Source of the DNA: a virus
DNA length: 28,555 nucleotides
Direction: 5' to 3' (one strand)
Virus record (IMG/VR): IMGVR_UViG_3300049729_000020
Coordinates: 1 to 28,555 of that record
Shown: positions 1-10,878 of the stretch, piece by piece
Layout: every line of letters starts with the position of its first letter
Numbering within the stretch: the first letter of the stretch is position 1
Notes under the pieces: generated by a model
Seen by the model: the letters and a program-made list of their open reading frames with translations, nothing else
What the model was told of the DNA's origin: nothing
Database searches by the model: none
Translations under genes and position numbers: made by a program

Positions 1-814
1 CAAATTGACAATGATGAGTAGAAGCGAATATTCTTCTCTGAACGTTTCTTAATTCTATTTTTAATATTGCTCTTAACTGTTCTTTATCTAAGTTGTTGAA
101 TACAACCATCTTATCTAATCTATTAATAAACTCTGGACTGAACTTCTTTTTGGCGGCATTCTTTGCGAAGTTTACTACTGACTTTCTATTTATTGTGCCA
201 GAAGTAAAACCCATACCATGTCCGTTAGCTTTTTCTATATCTCCAGCACCAATATTAGAAGTCATTAAGATTATAGACTTAGTAAAATCTATAACATCTC
301 CTTTCCCGGTAGTAAGAATTCCTTTATCTAGGATTCCTAATAGAAGATCATGGAAAGCAGGGGATGCCTTTTCTATTTCGTCGAATAGAACAATAGAGAT
401 CTTTATAGTATCAGTATGGTATTTATCTAGCTTTTCTTGACTAATTTGGGAAGAGGAATTCCTTTCTCCATGACCTACATAACTGGGAGGGGCCCCTATA
501 AGTTTTGATATCTCATGAGAAGATTGATATTCCCCGCAGTTTAGTTTTAACATTGCTTCTGGATTGCCGTATAATACCTCAGCAGTAGCCTGAGCCAGCA
601 AAGTTTTCCCCGTACCACTAGATCCTAACAATAGTAAATTAGCTATAGGTCTTGCAGGTGGAAGCATACCCGCTAAGTGCTGCTCATATATTTCAGATAT
701 AGCTTTTACTGCCTCATCTTGGTTTACTATTCTATTCTGCAGATTCTGTTCAAACTCTAAAGCCTCATCAGATCTGCGGTCTAAATCAAGAGGAGTAACT
801 GGGATATGTCGCAT
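1..814 (-). CDS. Clp-type AAA+ ATPase (ClpA/ClpB second-ring type), partial at window edge
   Basis: This is a partial open frame of 271 residues that runs off the left edge, so the C-terminus is missing. It reads as a single ClpA/ClpB D2-type AAA+ module. Walker A GSSGTGKT is at residues 64-71, the pore loop GAPPSYVG at 107-114, Walker B IVLFDE at 141-146, sensor-1 MTSN around 184-187, and the arginine finger in EFINRLD near 232. Family members are hexameric unfoldases that thread proteins through the pore. There is no D1 ring and no ClpX zinc domain; only about 60 residues precede Walker A. The ATG at 814 has AGGAAAG just upstream, overlapping the stop of the preceding gene 8 bases away, so the two are probably co-translated. 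In this context it may remodel tail or head proteins, but the substrate is unknown. The family call is secure; the role is inferred. Confidence 0.93.
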   Translation of the reverse strand, partial: MRHIPVTPLDLDRRSDEALEFEQNLQNRIVNQDEAVKAISEIYEQHLAGMLPPARPIANLLLLGSSGTGKTLLAQATAEVLYGNPEAMLKLNCGEYQSSHEISKLIGAPPSYVGHGERNSSSQISQEKLDKYHTDTIKISIVLFDEIEKASPAFHDLLLGILDKGILTTGKGDVIDFTKSIILMTSNIGAGDIEKANGHGMGFTSGTINRKSVVNFAKNAAKKKFSPEFINRLDKMVVFNNLDKEQLRAILKIELRNVQRRIFASTHHCQF

Positions 815-822
815 TAACTTTC

Positions 823-3800
823 CTAATTGTACATTTCAGGGTTCCGTCTCATGTTTTGGATGAGATTATCGTGGTCATCTCTTTCTATATCAACCTTAGT
901 ATTTCCTGAAGACGTCCTGCTAACGCTGGATGTCATAGTTACTTTAGGATCTCTATTATTTGAAGCAAGTAGCATACTTTCTATAATCTGTCTGTTGGCT
1001 TCCAAAGTTCTATTGGTTCCTGCCGTCAATTCTCTAACTGCTCCATCTATATAAGGCTTTCTCCAAAGAGTATTAGATCTATCATCGAAGATATTAAAGT
1101 CCTTTGCGTCATAACCTTCTAACTGTAATATCTTTAGTTTAACATCTTCATAGTCTAAATTTGGAGAAAAGACATCAGAATTCATGTCTGGGATATTATA
1201 ATTCTTATCTGTGAAAGCTTTAGCTATTTCTACGCTTCTAGAAAAGTCTCCATAATTTAGTTTTGTGTTGGCATTCTTATAGGCTTCTAGTCCTTCTTTT
1301 GTTAGGATTCGGCCGTCTTGACCGACCGGTCCTGTTTCCTTTCCTTCGGCTAAGTCTATATTGGTCTTAGCTTTTAACCATTGAGCCTCTAACGCTTCTG
1401 CTGTGGGAGCTGAAACAGAGGCTAAGATCGTTTGTCTCTTCTCTGGGTCTGTTTCTTTTACAAACTTAGTGAAATATACTGCTTCTCTGCGTGGGAGCGT
1501 AGAAGCTACATATGAAGATTCAGAGAATAAATCCACACCTTCGAAGGTTCTCAGACCTTGATTAGTATACTTGGATCTCTCTCCAGGGACCTTATCAGCA
1601 AGTATCTTACTTCTTAAATATTTAAGGCTATCAGTAATAGTGTTTAAATTTCTCTTCTCTTCTACTTCTTCAGGAACATCTACATATCCTGTAGCCCTCT
1701 TTACAGCTCCTCTTACATATGGCATTAAGAAGTCATGAAGTGGCTTGTCCCACCTTCTCATTCTTGACCCATAGACTTCCTTATCTAGATAGTCCGATAG
1801 TGGGTCTTTATTCTGCCAGAACTTGGTATGTGCTGGTGTGGGTACATATCTTAGAGGATTCCATACTTCTTCATCACCAGTAAATGCAAGCTCTTCTCCT
1901 ATAGTACCAAATGCTTGTGTCATTCCTCCAAATAGATCTCTAGCTTCTGGTCCTGCGTTTCGTCTGTCGAATCTGGCGTATCCTCTATCTATAAGTTCTG
2001 CATTTATATTGTCCGAACTTGTTCTAAAGACAGCATTTATTTCCTCAGCACTATCTATAGATCCACGAGGAACAGTGATAGATACATGAGTTCCAGGAGC
2101 CAGAGCATCCTGTAGATATTTTCCTAGGGCTTGTCTCTTACCCTGTACTTCATCATCTAATGCCTCTCTGGTTATGTTATTGTTTTCCCCGATAGAGATA
2201 GCAGCCATATCTGCTGCAGACATTCCTAAACCACTTAGTCTGAAAGTACGACCAGGGTATTCCTTAACTGATACTCCGTACTGATTCGCAGAATCTATAG
2301 TACCTTCAACAGAGTCCGTCCGGCCAGAGAATATTCTATTGGTTGTTCCTAAAGCAGAGTCTTTAGTCTGTCTAACTCTATCTAATATTCTAGAATATTC
2401 TATTTCTAGATCTGGATTGTACTGAGCTGACTTTGCTACCCTTCCTTTTACTGCTTGATATTCTCTAGAATAAGGAGCTATGTCTGAAAGAATAGATAGT
2501 TTATTAATGTCTGGGTAATCGTTGGGATCTAATCCTTTAAGCTCTGGATGCAAAGATTCGTACCCAGGGCCTGGTAAACGAGCATATCCATCTTCCAGTG
2601 CTGAATATGGATCTCCCTTTTTGAAATTCTTATACGCATCTGCACCTGGAATCCACCCTACATTAGCTAATGAATTGGGAATTTCATTAGCTTGTTGGGT
2701 GTTCTGCTCGTTCTGTATGAATCTTCTTAAAGGCTCAGTATACCCTAAAGCGGCAAACCTACCTTCAGGAGACATGAAATATCCTGCTCCAAGTTCTCTT
2801 TCATAATATCTTCTTTGCAGAGAATCTATCTGTCTCGAGCTTTGTAAGAATACATCCTTGTGTTGATCTGGGAATAACTTAGCCCATACAGATCGTCCAA
2901 TGAATCCATGAAGACCCATGAAATCAGAAAAAGCATATGCTTCTCTATCTATAGTATCTCTAAGACCAAACTCATCTTTGGGAGTTGGATTTGCCAATCC
3001 AACTAAGCCAGATTGAATATTACCACCAGCCTTTTCTGGTTCTATTCCTAAAGCTTGTAATCTGGAGAATACTGGGGCCATGGCTGCGGAGGAATCAGAG
3101 AAGAAAGATTTACTCTTTACTCTAATTACATCCCAACCAGCAGCTTCTATTTCAGCTTGTCTTTTAGCATCTGCAGCAGCATTCCACTTTCCATGATAAG
3201 TAGTGCTGTCAGCTTCTAGAACTACCTTATGTCCATTTCCTTCGAGGGTAAAGTCAGCCCTATAGTTCCCTATGGGGGTTTGTGGGCTTGATTTATATCC
3301 TCTTTCAGCTAACTGAACCGAGATATCTCTTTCAAATGGAGAGTCTACTGCCCCACCCCTAGGCTCTAGTAGAGATGAATATAGGTTATAGTCGGATTTT
3401 CCGTCCCATTCATCAGTATGCATTCTACGTACTGGCTTAACTAGTTTACCAATAGTGGCAGCTAGGAATGGTCCGATTATAGGTACATTAGAAAATGCTG
3501 GAGATGTTACTGGATAAGGCCTGTCTTCATAGTTCTGTTTTTCGAGCCAGTATGGATCTTTAAAGGCTGTTACTGGAGAAACTAAAGGATGGTGGGCCCA
3601 ATAAGCTTCTTCACTTCCATAAATAGAAGCTTTCTCTGCTTGGGCCTTCCATAGAACAGACCAGTGTGGTCTCCATTCTTTTATAGTAGATCCTGAGAAT
3701 GGGGTAATGCCCATGTCCCACCAGCGACCGGTACGGATGGGTACTGGCTCATTCCCAGAATAGATGTCTTGAAGTTCCCCTTCAGACTTGCGAGATCCAA

Positions 3801-5097
3801 TCATTCCAGGAATGAAAGGAATCATTAAAGCCAAGCCAGCTACTAATCCTTTTGCTACTGGCGACGCTTTATTAAATATCTTTAGGAAGGTAGCATCAGC
3901 TTTGGCTATACCATGCTCTACATCCCTTCCTTTGGCAAATATCCTAAAGGCAGCTTCCCTAGCCATCTGATGGGGGTATTTGTCTCGTAGGACGTTCCCA
4001 TAATGAATAAGGGCCCCAGCTACCATTCCACCTAGAGGAAGTGCTACAGGGCCGTACTGAGGCCCAGGAATGACCCTTGCATAAGTGTCTGTTATGCTTC
4101 TTAGGCCTGGAGTTTCGTCAGTTGCTTTGGCACGGGCTAAAGTGACTGACTGGAATGCATTTACAGCTGTATTGGAAGGCAGATGATGAAGTTTATAGTC
4201 TAGGTATGGAAGTGCTACTCCTGCTATTAAATAAGCTGGGAGAACTCGCTTACTTAGCAGTTCATTAATTATTCCCCTGCCATTCTTTTCCAGGAATGGT
4301 ATATGGAGTATTTTGTTATAGCTTCCGGCCTTAACTCCTATTCCAAATTCAGCGAATAGGTTCTGTTGGGGTCGTTCGACTAACCCAAAAGCTATTCTAT
4401 GGAACTTAGTAATGAAGTTAGAGAAAGGCTTCCCATCTCTTTCAGCTAGGACTGGAAGCATGGAGATAGATCTATAACCTACCTCTCCTTCTTGTCCTAC
4501 TAATCCCTGTACCTTAAATGAGGTACCAAGTCCTTTTGGCTTTTGGCCGCTCCTTAAAGCTTGGAAGTTGGACCAAAGATCTTTAAGTGGATTATCTGTA
4601 TGTACAAACTCATATGGTTCGGTAGATATGGGTGCACCATACCTAACCGAAGAAGTTCCTAACCTTCCTTCTTTGTAGAACTTAACCTTTACTGAGGGAT
4701 CTGTAGATAAACTTAGATAGCCAGTTTTGTCTAACTTATTGAATGTCAACCCACCGGCTTGGGCTAAATTGACATCTGTACCAATAAGTCTTTTTAAATG
4801 TTCAGCTAACGGAGTTGTATGGCTATTTACAAATAAGTTTTCATGAGGAATATGGACACTGCTGACTATATGAGCAGATGCCATTTCTGACAAGCTAGCG
4901 GTCTTAAATATAAAACCAGGAGACTTATTTTCTAGGTTCTCTGTGAAGTTATATAAATTCTTAGCATAAGTAGGACTATAGTTTAGTAGGCTTTTATGAG
5001 CAAAAGAAACCGCCCCTACCACCGAAGCAGTTGCAGCCCCTACAGCTATAGGACTAACATTTGCATCATCTGGATTGAGACGGTTATTATTAAACAT
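823..5097 (-). CDS. 1424-residue tape-measure-position protein with DUF559-like nuclease and SNase-like domains
   Basis: This is the longest gene in the window and follows two probable tail-assembly chaperone genes, the usual place for the tape measure. It does not look like a plain coiled-coil tape measure. Hydrophobic or Gly/Ala-rich stretches occur near residues 15-34, 286-298, 343-366, 414-433 and 536-553, which could be membrane-active after ejection. Residues 586-668 match the DUF559/Vsr-like PD-(D/E)xK fold: SPFER at 586-590, YRAD with D615, the core VVLEAD with E628 and D630, TYH at 633-635 and GWDVIRV at 654-660. Residues about 921-1045 resemble an SNase (thermonuclease) OB-fold: TFRLSGL at 951-957 and INAELIDRGYARF near 1031-1043. 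The usual acidic catalytic residues after FRL appear replaced, so this second domain may bind rather than cut. The C-terminal 370 residues are charged and unrecognised. A tape-measure or ejected-protein role is inferred from position and size. The ATG at 5097 has only a weak AGG upstream. Confidence 0.85.
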   Translation of the reverse strand: MFNNNRLNPDDANVSPIAVGAATASVVGAVSFAHKSLLNYSPTYAKNLYNFTENLENKSPGFIFKTASLSEMASAHIVSSVHIPHENLFVNSHTTPLAEHLKRLIGTDVNLAQAGGLTFNKLDKTGYLSLSTDPSVKVKFYKEGRLGTSSVRYGAPISTEPYEFVHTDNPLKDLWSNFQALRSGQKPKGLGTSFKVQGLVGQEGEVGYRSISMLPVLAERDGKPFSNFITKFHRIAFGLVERPQQNLFAEFGIGVKAGSYNKILHIPFLEKNGRGIINELLSKRVLPAYLIAGVALPYLDYKLHHLPSNTAVNAFQSVTLARAKATDETPGLRSITDTYARVIPGPQYGPVALPLGGMVAGALIHYGNVLRDKYPHQMAREAAFRIFAKGRDVEHGIAKADATFLKIFNKASPVAKGLVAGLALMIPFIPGMIGSRKSEGELQDIYSGNEPVPIRTGRWWDMGITPFSGSTIKEWRPHWSVLWKAQAEKASIYGSEEAYWAHHPLVSPVTAFKDPYWLEKQNYEDRPYPVTSPAFSNVPIIGPFLAATIGKLVKPVRRMHTDEWDGKSDYNLYSSLLEPRGGAVDSPFERDISVQLAERGYKSSPQTPIGNYRADFTLEGNGHKVVLEADSTTYHGKWNAAADAKRQAEIEAAGWDVIRVKSKSFFSDSSAAMAPVFSRLQALGIEPEKAGGNIQSGLVGLANPTPKDEFGLRDTIDREAYAFSDFMGLHGFIGRSVWAKLFPDQHKDVFLQSSRQIDSLQRRYYERELGAGYFMSPEGRFAALGYTEPLRRFIQNEQNTQQANEIPNSLANVGWIPGADAYKNFKKGDPYSALEDGYARLPGPGYESLHPELKGLDPNDYPDINKLSILSDIAPYSREYQAVKGRVAKSAQYNPDLEIEYSRILDRVRQTKDSALGTTNRIFSGRTDSVEGTIDSANQYGVSVKEYPGRTFRLSGLGMSAADMAAISIGENNNITREALDDEVQGKRQALGKYLQDALAPGTHVSITVPRGSIDSAEEINAVFRTSSDNINAELIDRGYARFDRRNAGPEARDLFGGMTQAFGTIGEELAFTGDEEVWNPLRYVPTPAHTKFWQNKDPLSDYLDKEVYGSRMRRWDKPLHDFLMPYVRGAVKRATGYVDVPEEVEEKRNLNTITDSLKYLRSKILADKVPGERSKYTNQGLRTFEGVDLFSESSYVASTLPRREAVYFTKFVKETDPEKRQTILASVSAPTAEALEAQWLKAKTNIDLAEGKETGPVGQDGRILTKEGLEAYKNANTKLNYGDFSRSVEIAKAFTDKNYNIPDMNSDVFSPNLDYEDVKLKILQLEGYDAKDFNIFDDRSNTLWRKPYIDGAVRELTAGTNRTLEANRQIIESMLLASNNRDPKVTMTSSVSRTSSGNTKVDIERDDHDNLIQNMRRNPEMYN

Positions 5098-5108: not shown

Positions 5109-5645
5109 TTAAGTAGTATTGTTTCTCTCTGAATGCCTCTTTTTAGCCAGTTCCTGGGGCGATAATCTCATGTTCAGTGGCCTCTCTTTAGGTATTTGTT
5201 TGGGCGCTGGAGGAGGAGCAGGATTCAATACTTCTCCTACTATAACTTCTGCTTGTGCTACTCTCATAAAAAACTTACTTGGGGTCCAGCTTTTTACCTC
5301 TTCTATCTTATAGTCAAATACATTACATACCATGGCTTGGGCGCTTAAAAGATAATCACTCTTTACAGCATTTCTAGCATCGTTTAATATCTCTATAAGA
5401 CATTTAGCATTACCACTAAATGGGTTATGAGATACTTGTTGGTTGGCTATAAAATAACCAGCCCCCGCTGTCAATGTTTCTCTAGCTGGGCCGTCTAGAA
5501 CACATGTATCGAGTATAGCAACAGAGATCTCAGGAGGTATATCAGATAACTCCCTAGTCCCACATATATCTTCGTACTCTTGCCAAGTGAGGTCTCTCCA
5601 TGATAGAGAGACCCCCGATGGCCATGTAGCTCTATAGCTTGCCAT
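5109..5645 (-). CDS. Probable second tail-assembly chaperone-like protein
   Basis: This 178-residue protein lies between the first chaperone-like gene and the giant tape-measure-position gene. The N-terminus is compact and acidic or aromatic (LSWRDLTWQEYEDI), followed by a helical body and a proline-rich, basic tail (PAPPPAPKQIPKERP near 143-157, then a Lys/Arg/Asn-rich end). Many tailed phages encode two chaperone products here that coat the tape measure during tail assembly and are absent from the mature tail. The usual arrangement, a programmed frameshift joining the two, is not possible here: both genes are in the same frame and in-frame TAA and TAG stops separate them. The ATG at 5645 has only a weak GAG-type ribosome site. 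The function is inferred from position and general shape; a small baseplate factor is the alternative. Confidence 0.6.
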   Translation of the reverse strand: MASYRATWPSGVSLSWRDLTWQEYEDICGTRELSDIPPEISVAILDTCVLDGPARETLTAGAGYFIANQQVSHNPFSGNAKCLIEILNDARNAVKSDYLLSAQAMVCNVFDYKIEEVKSWTPSKFFMRVAQAEVIVGEVLNPAPPPAPKQIPKERPLNMRLSPQELAKKRHSERNNTT

Positions 5646-5672: not shown

Positions 5673-6125
5673 TTACAAATCGCTCGAAAGAACTTCAAAG
5701 GCTGTAGGATCGACGTAGTCACTCATCCATGCAATAAAGTTAAAGATGGTTGAACTAAGTCCAGCAGATCCAGCTTTAAGTTCTTCAGCAGTTAGTTTAT
5801 TGGATGCAGTAGCGTTAGTCCAAACAGTACACTTTGCTGATACTAGAACTTCTAATTCAGCGGATTTCTGTTCTGGCTCGAGGTTCTTTGCTAATTGTCG
5901 GGACAAAGATGCTAGTTCTAAATGACCCACTGCCCTAAGAATAAACAGGCGTTTACCTCCATCTGGGGTGAATACCTTAAGTCTTCCATTAGGAGTCTGT
6001 ACCTTTAATGCTAGGATGGCATCTTTATTTGGCCCACCAGCCTTTTCAATTAAAGTATAAGGATCTAGTAATTCTTCTTTTGCTTGTTCTACTTCTGCTA
6101 CTTGTTCTTGGATTTCTTCACTCAT
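5673..6125 (-). CDS. Probable tail-assembly chaperone
   Basis: This 150-residue acidic protein starts with a Glu/Gln-rich helix (residues 1-20) and continues into a small mixed fold containing VFTPDGGKRLFILRAV and a helix ending ELASLSRQLAKNL. Size, acidity and position, directly after the tube genes and before the tape-measure-position gene, fit a tail-assembly chaperone. The ATG at 6125 is supported by GGAGAT a few bases upstream. The stop at 5673 is followed 27 bases later by the next start in the same frame. I checked the -1 and +1 frames near the stop and both close quickly, so there is no frameshift extension. No catalytic motif is visible. The role rests on context rather than a diagnostic motif. 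Confidence 0.6.
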   Translation of the reverse strand: MSEEIQEQVAEVEQAKEELLDPYTLIEKAGGPNKDAILALKVQTPNGRLKVFTPDGGKRLFILRAVGHLELASLSRQLAKNLEPEQKSAELEVLVSAKCTVWTNATASNKLTAEELKAGSAGLSSTIFNFIAWMSDYVDPTAFEVLSSDL

Positions 6126-8997: not shown

Positions 8998-10878
8998 TTA
9001 AGTAGCAGAGCTCTGTGAAATTCCAACAGTTACATTCAGTTGGACCAGTTCGTTTGCAGGGACAAAGCTAATATTGACACTTGCATGTCCAAGACGGATG
9101 TCTGCTTGAGTTGTTGTAACAGTAAAGCTATATGAAGATATATAGCCTCTCTGTTGTAGAACAAGGTATTTGTTTGTCAGGGCGGTCTTCAGAGCAGAAA
9201 GACTTAGGAGATCTGTACTAGCATATCCAATAAATCCATCCGCTACTTGACGCGTGGTCTCTACAACAAGTCCCTTGATATCCTGCCGCAAAAGGTTAAT
9301 GTAATCACTATTAGGATTGGCTATCGTTTCCCCGTGTAGCAAAGCGGGAAGACTATTGTTTCCCTTGAATCTGAGAACATTTATACCAACCTCAGTTAAT
9401 GAATCCATCTGTGCATTGTTTGGCTTCCACAGCTGAATTACAGAAATAGGCTTGTTAGTTAGAGCTACCTTCTGATCCAGGGTAGAATGGAATCCCGCTA
9501 CCAGGCCAGCGAGGTTAGTCACATAATTCTGTAGGTATCCGTTAGATACAACAGCGTAATCTCCAACAACGTGTATATAGGCACCGATGTCTACTGGGTT
9601 ATTATTGGCGTCGTAATTTATAGCTCCATCGTACAGATCATTGTTAGTAGAAAATACTCCTGGATCTCTGTAGCCTGTAGCATAATCAGTACATAGGAAG
9701 TTCAAACTAGTTGCATTGCATCCGGCAAGAATAGGAATTCCTAACAGACCCTTTCCAGATATATCTACTTCTTCAGTATTAATTAGATCAAAAGTAGGCA
9801 GATACCCTACCCAATTTCTTGTATCTACTAGACCAAAACTCTTAGGTCCACTAGTTCCAATGAATCCTATTACGGTACCATTGAGACCAACAACTTCCTG
9901 ATCATAGCAATAATTACCAATAAGATTGACATAATTCGTTTCGTAGAATCCAGCAGCGATACGAGCTGCAGCAGTGACAGCTGTCATTGCCGTTACTGTC
10001 GCGCCTGTTGAGTCGGTGGTCTCCGAAGCCCACTGGTAAATGTTGCCACCTTCTCCATCGGATGTAATTTTTAGCCAGTCAAGAGCATTAGCATTCGTTG
10101 ATGGGTTGTTTACTGCGGTTGCAGGAGTACCACTTACATAGTAAGCCACATTAGGTTGATCCAAGACAGCATCTGGACAGAATATTTGATCTACTGGATA
10201 GATTGAAAGTAGATCTAATGCTTCTGCTATGGCTATATATGTCTGACGTCCTGTCAAAGACAGTCCGGTAACAGGAGGAGTTAAGGTTACGTGAACGGCA
10301 CCCCCAGAAGTTGGTACTGCAGCGGCAGCTGCAATTGTAATAGCTCCACTAAGCGAACCTGTGGCACCAGTACCGAAGAGGAGTCCTGTATTTCCTGCTA
10401 CTGTCCCAGTTATAGAGATGTTACCCGAATCTACTACTACATTATTGGCTGAGTCGTTAGCATATACTAGTTGGCCGCTCAGCCATACGTAAAGTACTCC
10501 ATTAGCATACCAGATAGAATAATCTGTAGTTGTAGTAGAGGATACTTCACTGAATGTGATAGTAAATCCAGGAGTGGGGGATCCACCCGTCTCTACTCCT
10601 ACTCCGGTTAATGTTGCAGGAGTAGTTCCAGCGCGGAATAGAACTATATTATCGTTGCCAGCGCTGGCACACTCTTCCATACCACGAATAAGAGAACCGC
10701 TAAGTCCGAATACAGTAGCAGCAGTAGCCCTACTTGTTACAGAGTAAGGTTCATTAGCTGGCCCAGTTCCAGCTGTACCGACAATTAAAGTCAACTTAGT
10801 TGAAGGTGTAACTGTTGCTACCATTCCACCGTCTAGTGTGTTTATCTGGGTGCCTGGCAGGTAATTATAGGTTGGCAT
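8998..10878 (-). CDS. Contractile tail sheath protein
   Basis: This 626-residue protein is a large beta-rich sheath. The N-terminal part (about 1-100) has the typical opening PGTQINTLDGG and a strand-rich region. A Thr/Gly-rich insertion follows, probably an exposed domain. The C-terminal half has the family pattern: Asn/Asp-rich segments, KPISVIQLWKPNNAQMDSLT, VLRFKGNN, DYINLLRQDIKGLVVETT, then RGYISSYSFTV, ADIRLGHASVNISFVPANEL and a final strand (VQLNVTV) that in known sheaths exchanges with neighbouring subunits. Its order between a tail-completion candidate and the tube gene supports the call. A strong AGGAGA ribosome site precedes the ATG at 10878. Its presence makes this a myovirus with a contractile tail. 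Confidence 0.93.
   Translation of the reverse strand: MPTYNYLPGTQINTLDGGMVATVTPSTKLTLIVGTAGTGPANEPYSVTSRATAATVFGLSGSLIRGMEECASAGNDNIVLFRAGTTPATLTGVGVETGGSPTPGFTITFSEVSSTTTTDYSIWYANGVLYVWLSGQLVYANDSANNVVVDSGNISITGTVAGNTGLLFGTGATGSLSGAITIAAAAAVPTSGGAVHVTLTPPVTGLSLTGRQTYIAIAEALDLLSIYPVDQIFCPDAVLDQPNVAYYVSGTPATAVNNPSTNANALDWLKITSDGEGGNIYQWASETTDSTGATVTAMTAVTAAARIAAGFYETNYVNLIGNYCYDQEVVGLNGTVIGFIGTSGPKSFGLVDTRNWVGYLPTFDLINTEEVDISGKGLLGIPILAGCNATSLNFLCTDYATGYRDPGVFSTNNDLYDGAINYDANNNPVDIGAYIHVVGDYAVVSNGYLQNYVTNLAGLVAGFHSTLDQKVALTNKPISVIQLWKPNNAQMDSLTEVGINVLRFKGNNSLPALLHGETIANPNSDYINLLRQDIKGLVVETTRQVADGFIGYASTDLLSLSALKTALTNKYLVLQQRGYISSYSFTVTTTQADIRLGHASVNISFVPANELVQLNVTVGISQSSAT

Follow-up and report, generated by a model that had tools for sequence, protein, structure and literature searches.

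A PD-(D/E)XK nuclease domain inserted in a loop of a giant, cysteine-free tail-locus protein of a 0305phi8-36-like jumbo myophage

What a nuclease domain does inside a giant protein of a phage tail locus, and whether it might act on the DNA of the infected cell, is the question raised by the window, the whole stretch of DNA that was analysed. The window is a 28.6-kb virus fragment (28,555 nucleotides, positions 1 to 28,555 of IMG/VR virus record IMGVR_UViG_3300049729_000020). The gene under study is its minus-strand open frame 823-5097, assigned from the open reading frame (ORF) and its homologues to a gp145-like giant tail-locus protein of 1424 amino acids (aa) with zero cysteine. We propose tentatively, with confidence just short of even, that its optional nuclease domain is delivered at entry with the genome and cuts DNA near the entry point.

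The PD-(D/E)XK core, of the MTES_1575/DUF559/Vsr type, was located by Pfam and by an AlphaFold2 (AF2) model at residues 588-680 (3058..3336, minus strand). These residues were matched by Pfam MTES_1575 with E 2.2e-16 and 60.1 bits against a cut-off of 38.2, and the nuclease region was also matched by DUF559 (E 1.5e-7) and weakly, in NCBIfam, by anti-phage proteins such as Hhe/ProA. Modelled alone, the region adopted a restriction-endonuclease-like fold with a predicted local distance difference test score of 80. Structural alignment of the model gave Z 13.4 with the I-Bth0305I catalytic domain (3r3p), Z 12.0 with the DUF559 structure 3hrl and Z 10.5 with Vsr (1cw0). The family motif D...ExD plus H, D and R is in place as E589, D615, E628, D630, Y634-H635, D643 and R646. 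The domain is real, far above chance, and the preliminary description of this DNA, which had named a DUF559/Vsr-like PD-(D/E)xK domain with D615, E628 and D630, was borne out in both its residues and its fold. The window domain shares profile, fold and catalytic residues with the MTES_1575/DUF559/Vsr (EDD) nucleases (3hrl, 1cw0) and is a putative DNase. Such domains usually stand alone or occur in anti-phage proteins, whereas this one lies inside a tail protein.

The gene was compared with about 90 relatives from 0305phi8-36-like jumbo myophages, including contig L002, which is 99% identical to the window and extends beyond it. Alignment with close relatives placed the nuclease in an inserted cassette at residues about 582-695 (3013..3354, minus strand), shared only with relative L011; the insert is about 112 residues long and is filled by the catalytic domain. 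Just upstream lies conserved core block A (residues 397-562, 3412..3909, minus strand), alignable in nearly all relatives, and just downstream lies conserved core block B, defined by the same alignments (residues 716-880, 2458..2952, minus strand). The insertion site is the length-variable loop between the two blocks, which measures 36-72 aa in many relatives and elsewhere comprises 110-280 aa of unrelated, partly glycine/serine-rich sequence.

Among the fetched relatives the domain was held only by the window/L002 lineage and L011, at the same site. About ten other close lineages (39-50% identical) have no domain and run uninterrupted across the site, as in 'EPKGP-EALPPPxPKDEF'. As these relatives lack exactly that piece, the nuclease looks like an optional tool and not a structural part. 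When viral contigs were searched for this nuclease subtype, the L011 copy was the only other one recovered, and none was found in named phages. In a tree calculated without the insert, support was 100/100 for pairing L011 with L092, which has no nuclease, and 95/97 for grouping the window with L013 and L015. L011 and L092 differ by the nuclease domain at a backbone identity of 58-68%. The window and L011 are thus non-sister lineages, and their shared domain calls for two or more events of gain, loss or exchange. The L092 genome also has a stand-alone MTES_1575-like ORF (L108, G003:C1:76626-76922), which was considered as a possible type of donor; it is not close to the insert.

The second copy (MTES_1575 E 1e-18) is 39% identical to that of the window, and the two are identical at E589, D615, E628, Y634, H635, D643, R646 and G654. 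This retention of catalytic positions in both copies despite the low domain identity argues against an inert insert, a spacer simply kept in a permissive loop. The unrelated and partly glycine/serine-rich filling of the same loop in other relatives speaks for a spacer, but we regard an inert insert as quite unlikely. The distribution also bears on the idea that the domain is an assembly or genome-entry DNase of the phage itself, which would trim, release or clear DNA in the tail or neck without attacking host DNA. Packaging in T4 depends on gp4, a nuclease of the same superfamily that is associated with the virion (as reported in PMC7824862), and the gene studied here lies within the morphogenesis block. 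However, a domain found in 2 of about 12 close lineages is not required for assembly, and the gene sits in the tail block, distant from the terminase gene; this role appears slightly less likely again than that of a spacer.

The main rival is a homing-type or selfish cassette, which would spread by cutting alleles without the insert and have nil effect on host DNA. The closest fold is that of I-Bth0305I, a homing endonuclease from 0305phi8-36, the name phage of the lineage to which the window gene belongs, and one site has been used in two non-sister lineages. The same gene has an intein in L025 and is split around a small ORF in KLEB27-3, and phage tape-measure genes are known as homing targets (PMC10448857). 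Unlike I-Bth0305I (EDxHD), the window insert consists of the catalytic domain alone and has neither a DNA-recognition module nor any element of an intron or intein; it is read in frame, is retained in the protein and has its Pfam affinity to MTES_1575/DUF559. On this balance a homing cassette is judged unlikely. An intein or intron origin of the insert was rejected on its length, its in-frame translation and the absence of splicing motifs; the window protein gave no Pfam intein match, and the insert is too short for an intein.

Across the 15 kb shared by the window and L002 the differences are patchy, with clean stretches of >1 kb beside up to 30% difference per 250 bases, which points to recombination between closely related phages. 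The insert lies inside a clean 800-base stretch. Its unchanged state was dropped as a sign of constraint, as this is one of several clean stretches.

The identity of the carrier was established from named-phage homologues, namely ME3_35 of Acinetobacter phage ME3, MTATph1 CDS26 and KLEB27-3 gp031 + gp033, together with IMG/VR relatives. For ME3_35 the annotation reads 'virion structural protein' and rests on homology to 0305phi8-36 YP_001429636, and that of the hub ME3_37 gives YP_001429638 as its homologue; the 1424-aa gene thus corresponds to gp145. One BFVD hit, A7KUR9, may be a protein of 0305phi8-36. It is the same gene as gp145 by position, and the same as ME3_35 by sequence also, but ME3_35 lacks both the PD-(D/E)XK insert and any alignable counterpart of the staphylococcal nuclease (SNase)-like region described below. 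The proposal that a tail protein carries the nuclease was upheld in so far as an intact-looking domain resides in a tail-locus protein of virion class, as judged from the annotation of the ME3 homologue.

The genes upstream of 823-5097 have counterparts in the ME3 sheath gene and the three that follow it, the match being weak for the chaperone. In close relatives the order after the gp145-like gene is an AAA+ gene, which is optional, then a gp146-like gene of about 1600-1680 aa and then the hub. In the 0305phi8-36 lineage the tape measure has been assigned to gp146, with chaperonins 'one gene removed' from it (PMC2147016). By synteny, then, the product of 823-5097 is not the one assigned as tape measure in the lineage. 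The preliminary description had put the protein in the tape-measure position, which is one gene off, and the gp146-like gene is a nearby gene with tape-measure character of the kind that it had named as counting against the proposal; the published gp146 assignment is itself inferential.

The gp145 family contains 7 cysteines in 169,797 aa (95 proteins, near-copies included), and 5 of the 7 belong to L025, where they lie inside or at its intein. Other ORFs of these loci contain 0.50% cysteine and the next giant gene, gp146-like, 0.026% with one mis-assigned ORF included. Eight classical tape measures (lambda, T4, T5, Mu, P2, HK97, TP901-1 and SPO1; reference phages L098-L105) contain 1 cysteine in 7,033 aa, the P2 protein being counted without its first 50 residues. 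Most, not all, of the neighbours of these reference tape measures contain some cysteine, and the hubs of the lineage's named phages have 5-12. Since scarcity of cysteine is common to gp145, gp146 and the classical tape measures, gp145 was grouped with the tape-measure class, and a place in the tail lumen followed by ejection is plausible because of this near-absence. The pattern is a correlation seen here and not a published criterion; a literature search on cysteine-free tape measures found no paper. As a simple marker at sequence level, it could flag tail proteins that sit in the lumen or are ejected, and it can be checked on more phages.

The same counts bear on a further alternative, in which the protein would be a baseplate or tube-initiator part that is never ejected and whose nuclease would act extracellularly or have no action during infection. 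The gene is located between the chaperones and the hub, the ME3 annotation says only 'virion structural protein', and an endonuclease effector of a contractile system has been linked to extracellular DNA release (PMC11126660). Cysteine counts are nevertheless ordinary in the lineage's hubs and nil in gp145 and gp146, and we consider a baseplate role improbable.

In the delivery model that we prefer, the protein would be a large tail protein, free of cysteine, from a 0305phi8-36-like jumbo myophage, probably housed in the tail tube beside or with the tape measure, and would exit the virion ahead of or together with the DNA. In two lineages a small PD-(D/E)XK DNase domain would have been inserted in the loop between two core blocks, leaving the rest undisturbed. 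Once delivered, the domain might cut DNA by the entry point, either that of the host chromosome or that of a plasmid, prophage or competing phage resident in the cell. There is precedent for parts of this scheme. The lambda tape-measure protein adjoins an inner-membrane protein during injection (PMC13190303), and an active endonuclease domain is part of Tme, a contractile-injection-system effector related to tape measures (PMC11126660). By analogy, Tme of the Streptomyces contractile injection systems and the window protein would both have a nuclease mounted on a contractile-tail protein that resembles a tape measure; the Tme nuclease differs from the window insert in being of the EndA DNA-entry type, C-terminal and part of a bacterial system. 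The polyvalent proteins of phages (PMC5512222) share the idea of multi-domain enzymes delivered with phage DNA. Pfam scans of the window protein and its relatives gave no polyvalent-associated or protease domain, and one BFVD structural neighbour was labelled polyvalent.

Several points weigh against delivery. Fold, catalytic residues, clean insertion, patchy distribution and composition are computed results, whereas presence in this virion, ejection, DNase activity and target are all things that we infer. The absence of cysteine could mean a lumen position or assembly alone, with no ejection, and a rule would need more than eight reference tape measures. A nuclease in this protein would lie in the same tail as the DNA of the phage itself, for which no protective device was identified. 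D630 is replaced by E in the L011 copy, and presence in two lineages only leaves room for a transient selfish insert. The preliminary interpretation is, overall, partly supported. The insert extends a known theme of enzymes on tail and injection proteins; its anatomy is well supported and its function putative. It offers a concrete testable case of an enzyme on a tail-lumen-class phage protein, for which relatives with and without the insert occur naturally. Delivery of the domain, if it occurs, could allow the phage to attack cell DNA before expressing any gene of its own.

A second nuclease fold is present further along the protein. In a larger AF2 model (residues 397-1140) an SNase-type oligonucleotide/oligosaccharide-binding (OB) fold was recovered at residues about 925-1060 (1918..2325, minus strand) with Z about 9, in a region present in close relatives. 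A Pfam scan of the window protein gave no SNase match there. By eye, the close-family alignment lacks the DGD, the D40/E43 acids and R87; measured against staphylococcal nuclease, the OB fold is present and catalytic D21, R35, D40, E43 and R87 are not. This domain is probably catalytically dead. The description of residues about 921-1045 as SNase-like, under the label 'nuclease-type', accordingly fits the fold of this region and not its active site, whose catalytic residues are not kept.

Nuclease domains recur in tail proteins of the lineage. The gp145 homologue of L069 (6638-12148) has an SNase domain at residues about 415-548, in its N-terminal half, with the catalytic R, D, E and R kept; the protein lacks the PD-(D/E)XK insert, and its SNase domain is an independent one. 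This was the only further inserted enzyme found in Pfam scans of 45 relatives. The gp145-like gene of L025 (10001-15214) has the intein, at residues about 488-895, with Cys1 and a C-terminal HN-S junction and a Pfam score of 35.5, just below the cut-off of 35.8. Neighbouring genes match RNase_T exonuclease in MTATph1, just at the cut-off, and a PHROG exonuclease in L019. The hub protein of BtI1 carries an SNase domain (PMC2147016), a nuclease fold in a tail protein of the same lineage but in the hub gene and not gp145.

The gp146-like gene of relatives contains a DxDGD (DxDxD) motif with RxP upstream; across 14 aligned members, neither the P nor any of the three D varies. When a profile of the motif region was searched against the PDB, 27/27 matches (to E 10, best 0.002) were chains of RNA polymerase beta-prime type. 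The region was found in 31 loci, with motif-bearing genes at L005:24295-31599, L019:13216-20556, L017:13879-18876, L072:12225-16991 and others. DxDxD was also present in 7/7 members from outside the profile set that are not near-copies of it (L011, L059, L062, L067, L077, L089 and L090). The product to which the tape-measure role has been assigned in this lineage may therefore be a virion RNA polymerase, or contain one. 0305phi8-36 already has a known polymerase, orf99, which is a different gene; the YonO-like polymerase ABS83659.1 was considered as gp146 and dropped, the 2007 paper having put the phage's known polymerase at orf99. As L002:15431-16324 is the N-terminal part of a gene homologous to gp146-like, the window's phage probably carries a gp146-like gene with the polymerase motif too. 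It is conceivable, though rather unlikely, that the tail injects a gp145-type protein armable with exchangeable DNases together with a gp146-type giant that bears the active-site motif of an RNA polymerase; DNA of the host or a rival would then be cut while phage transcription begins.

The neighbouring genes are all on the minus strand. The tail sheath lies at 8998..10878 (PHROG tail sheath E 2e-46; ME3_29 E 2e-24), a 150-aa tail-chaperone-like protein at 5673..6125 (ME3_33, E 0.003) and a 178-aa protein between the latter and the gp145-like gene at 5109..5645 (weak match to MTATph1 CDS25). The location of the giant gene after chaperone-like genes, also given in the preliminary description, is weakly indicated by sequence and well by synteny. 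A ClpB/ClpV D2-like AAA+ ATPase at 2..814 is cut by the window end and is 378 aa long in L002 (L002:14284-15420). A single-ring ClpB/ClpV-like AAA+ ATPase occurs 0-15 bases after the gp145-like gene in 7/19 close loci and was not found in the others.

Several membrane-active-looking segments had been suggested in the protein; only two exceed a Kyte-Doolittle value of 1.6, at residues 14-32 (5002..5058, 1.67) and 411-429 (3811..3867, >1.6), both on the minus strand, the latter also seen in L011, L013 and L017. In KLEB27-3, gp031 and gp033 are apparently one gp145 gene split by a small ORF of unknown kind (L005:21304-21939), where an Rfam search for an intron found none. Finally, the gp145-like protein is extended N-terminally by about 370 aa, with no Pfam match in the members scanned, in L009, L010, L012, L087-L090 and L092.

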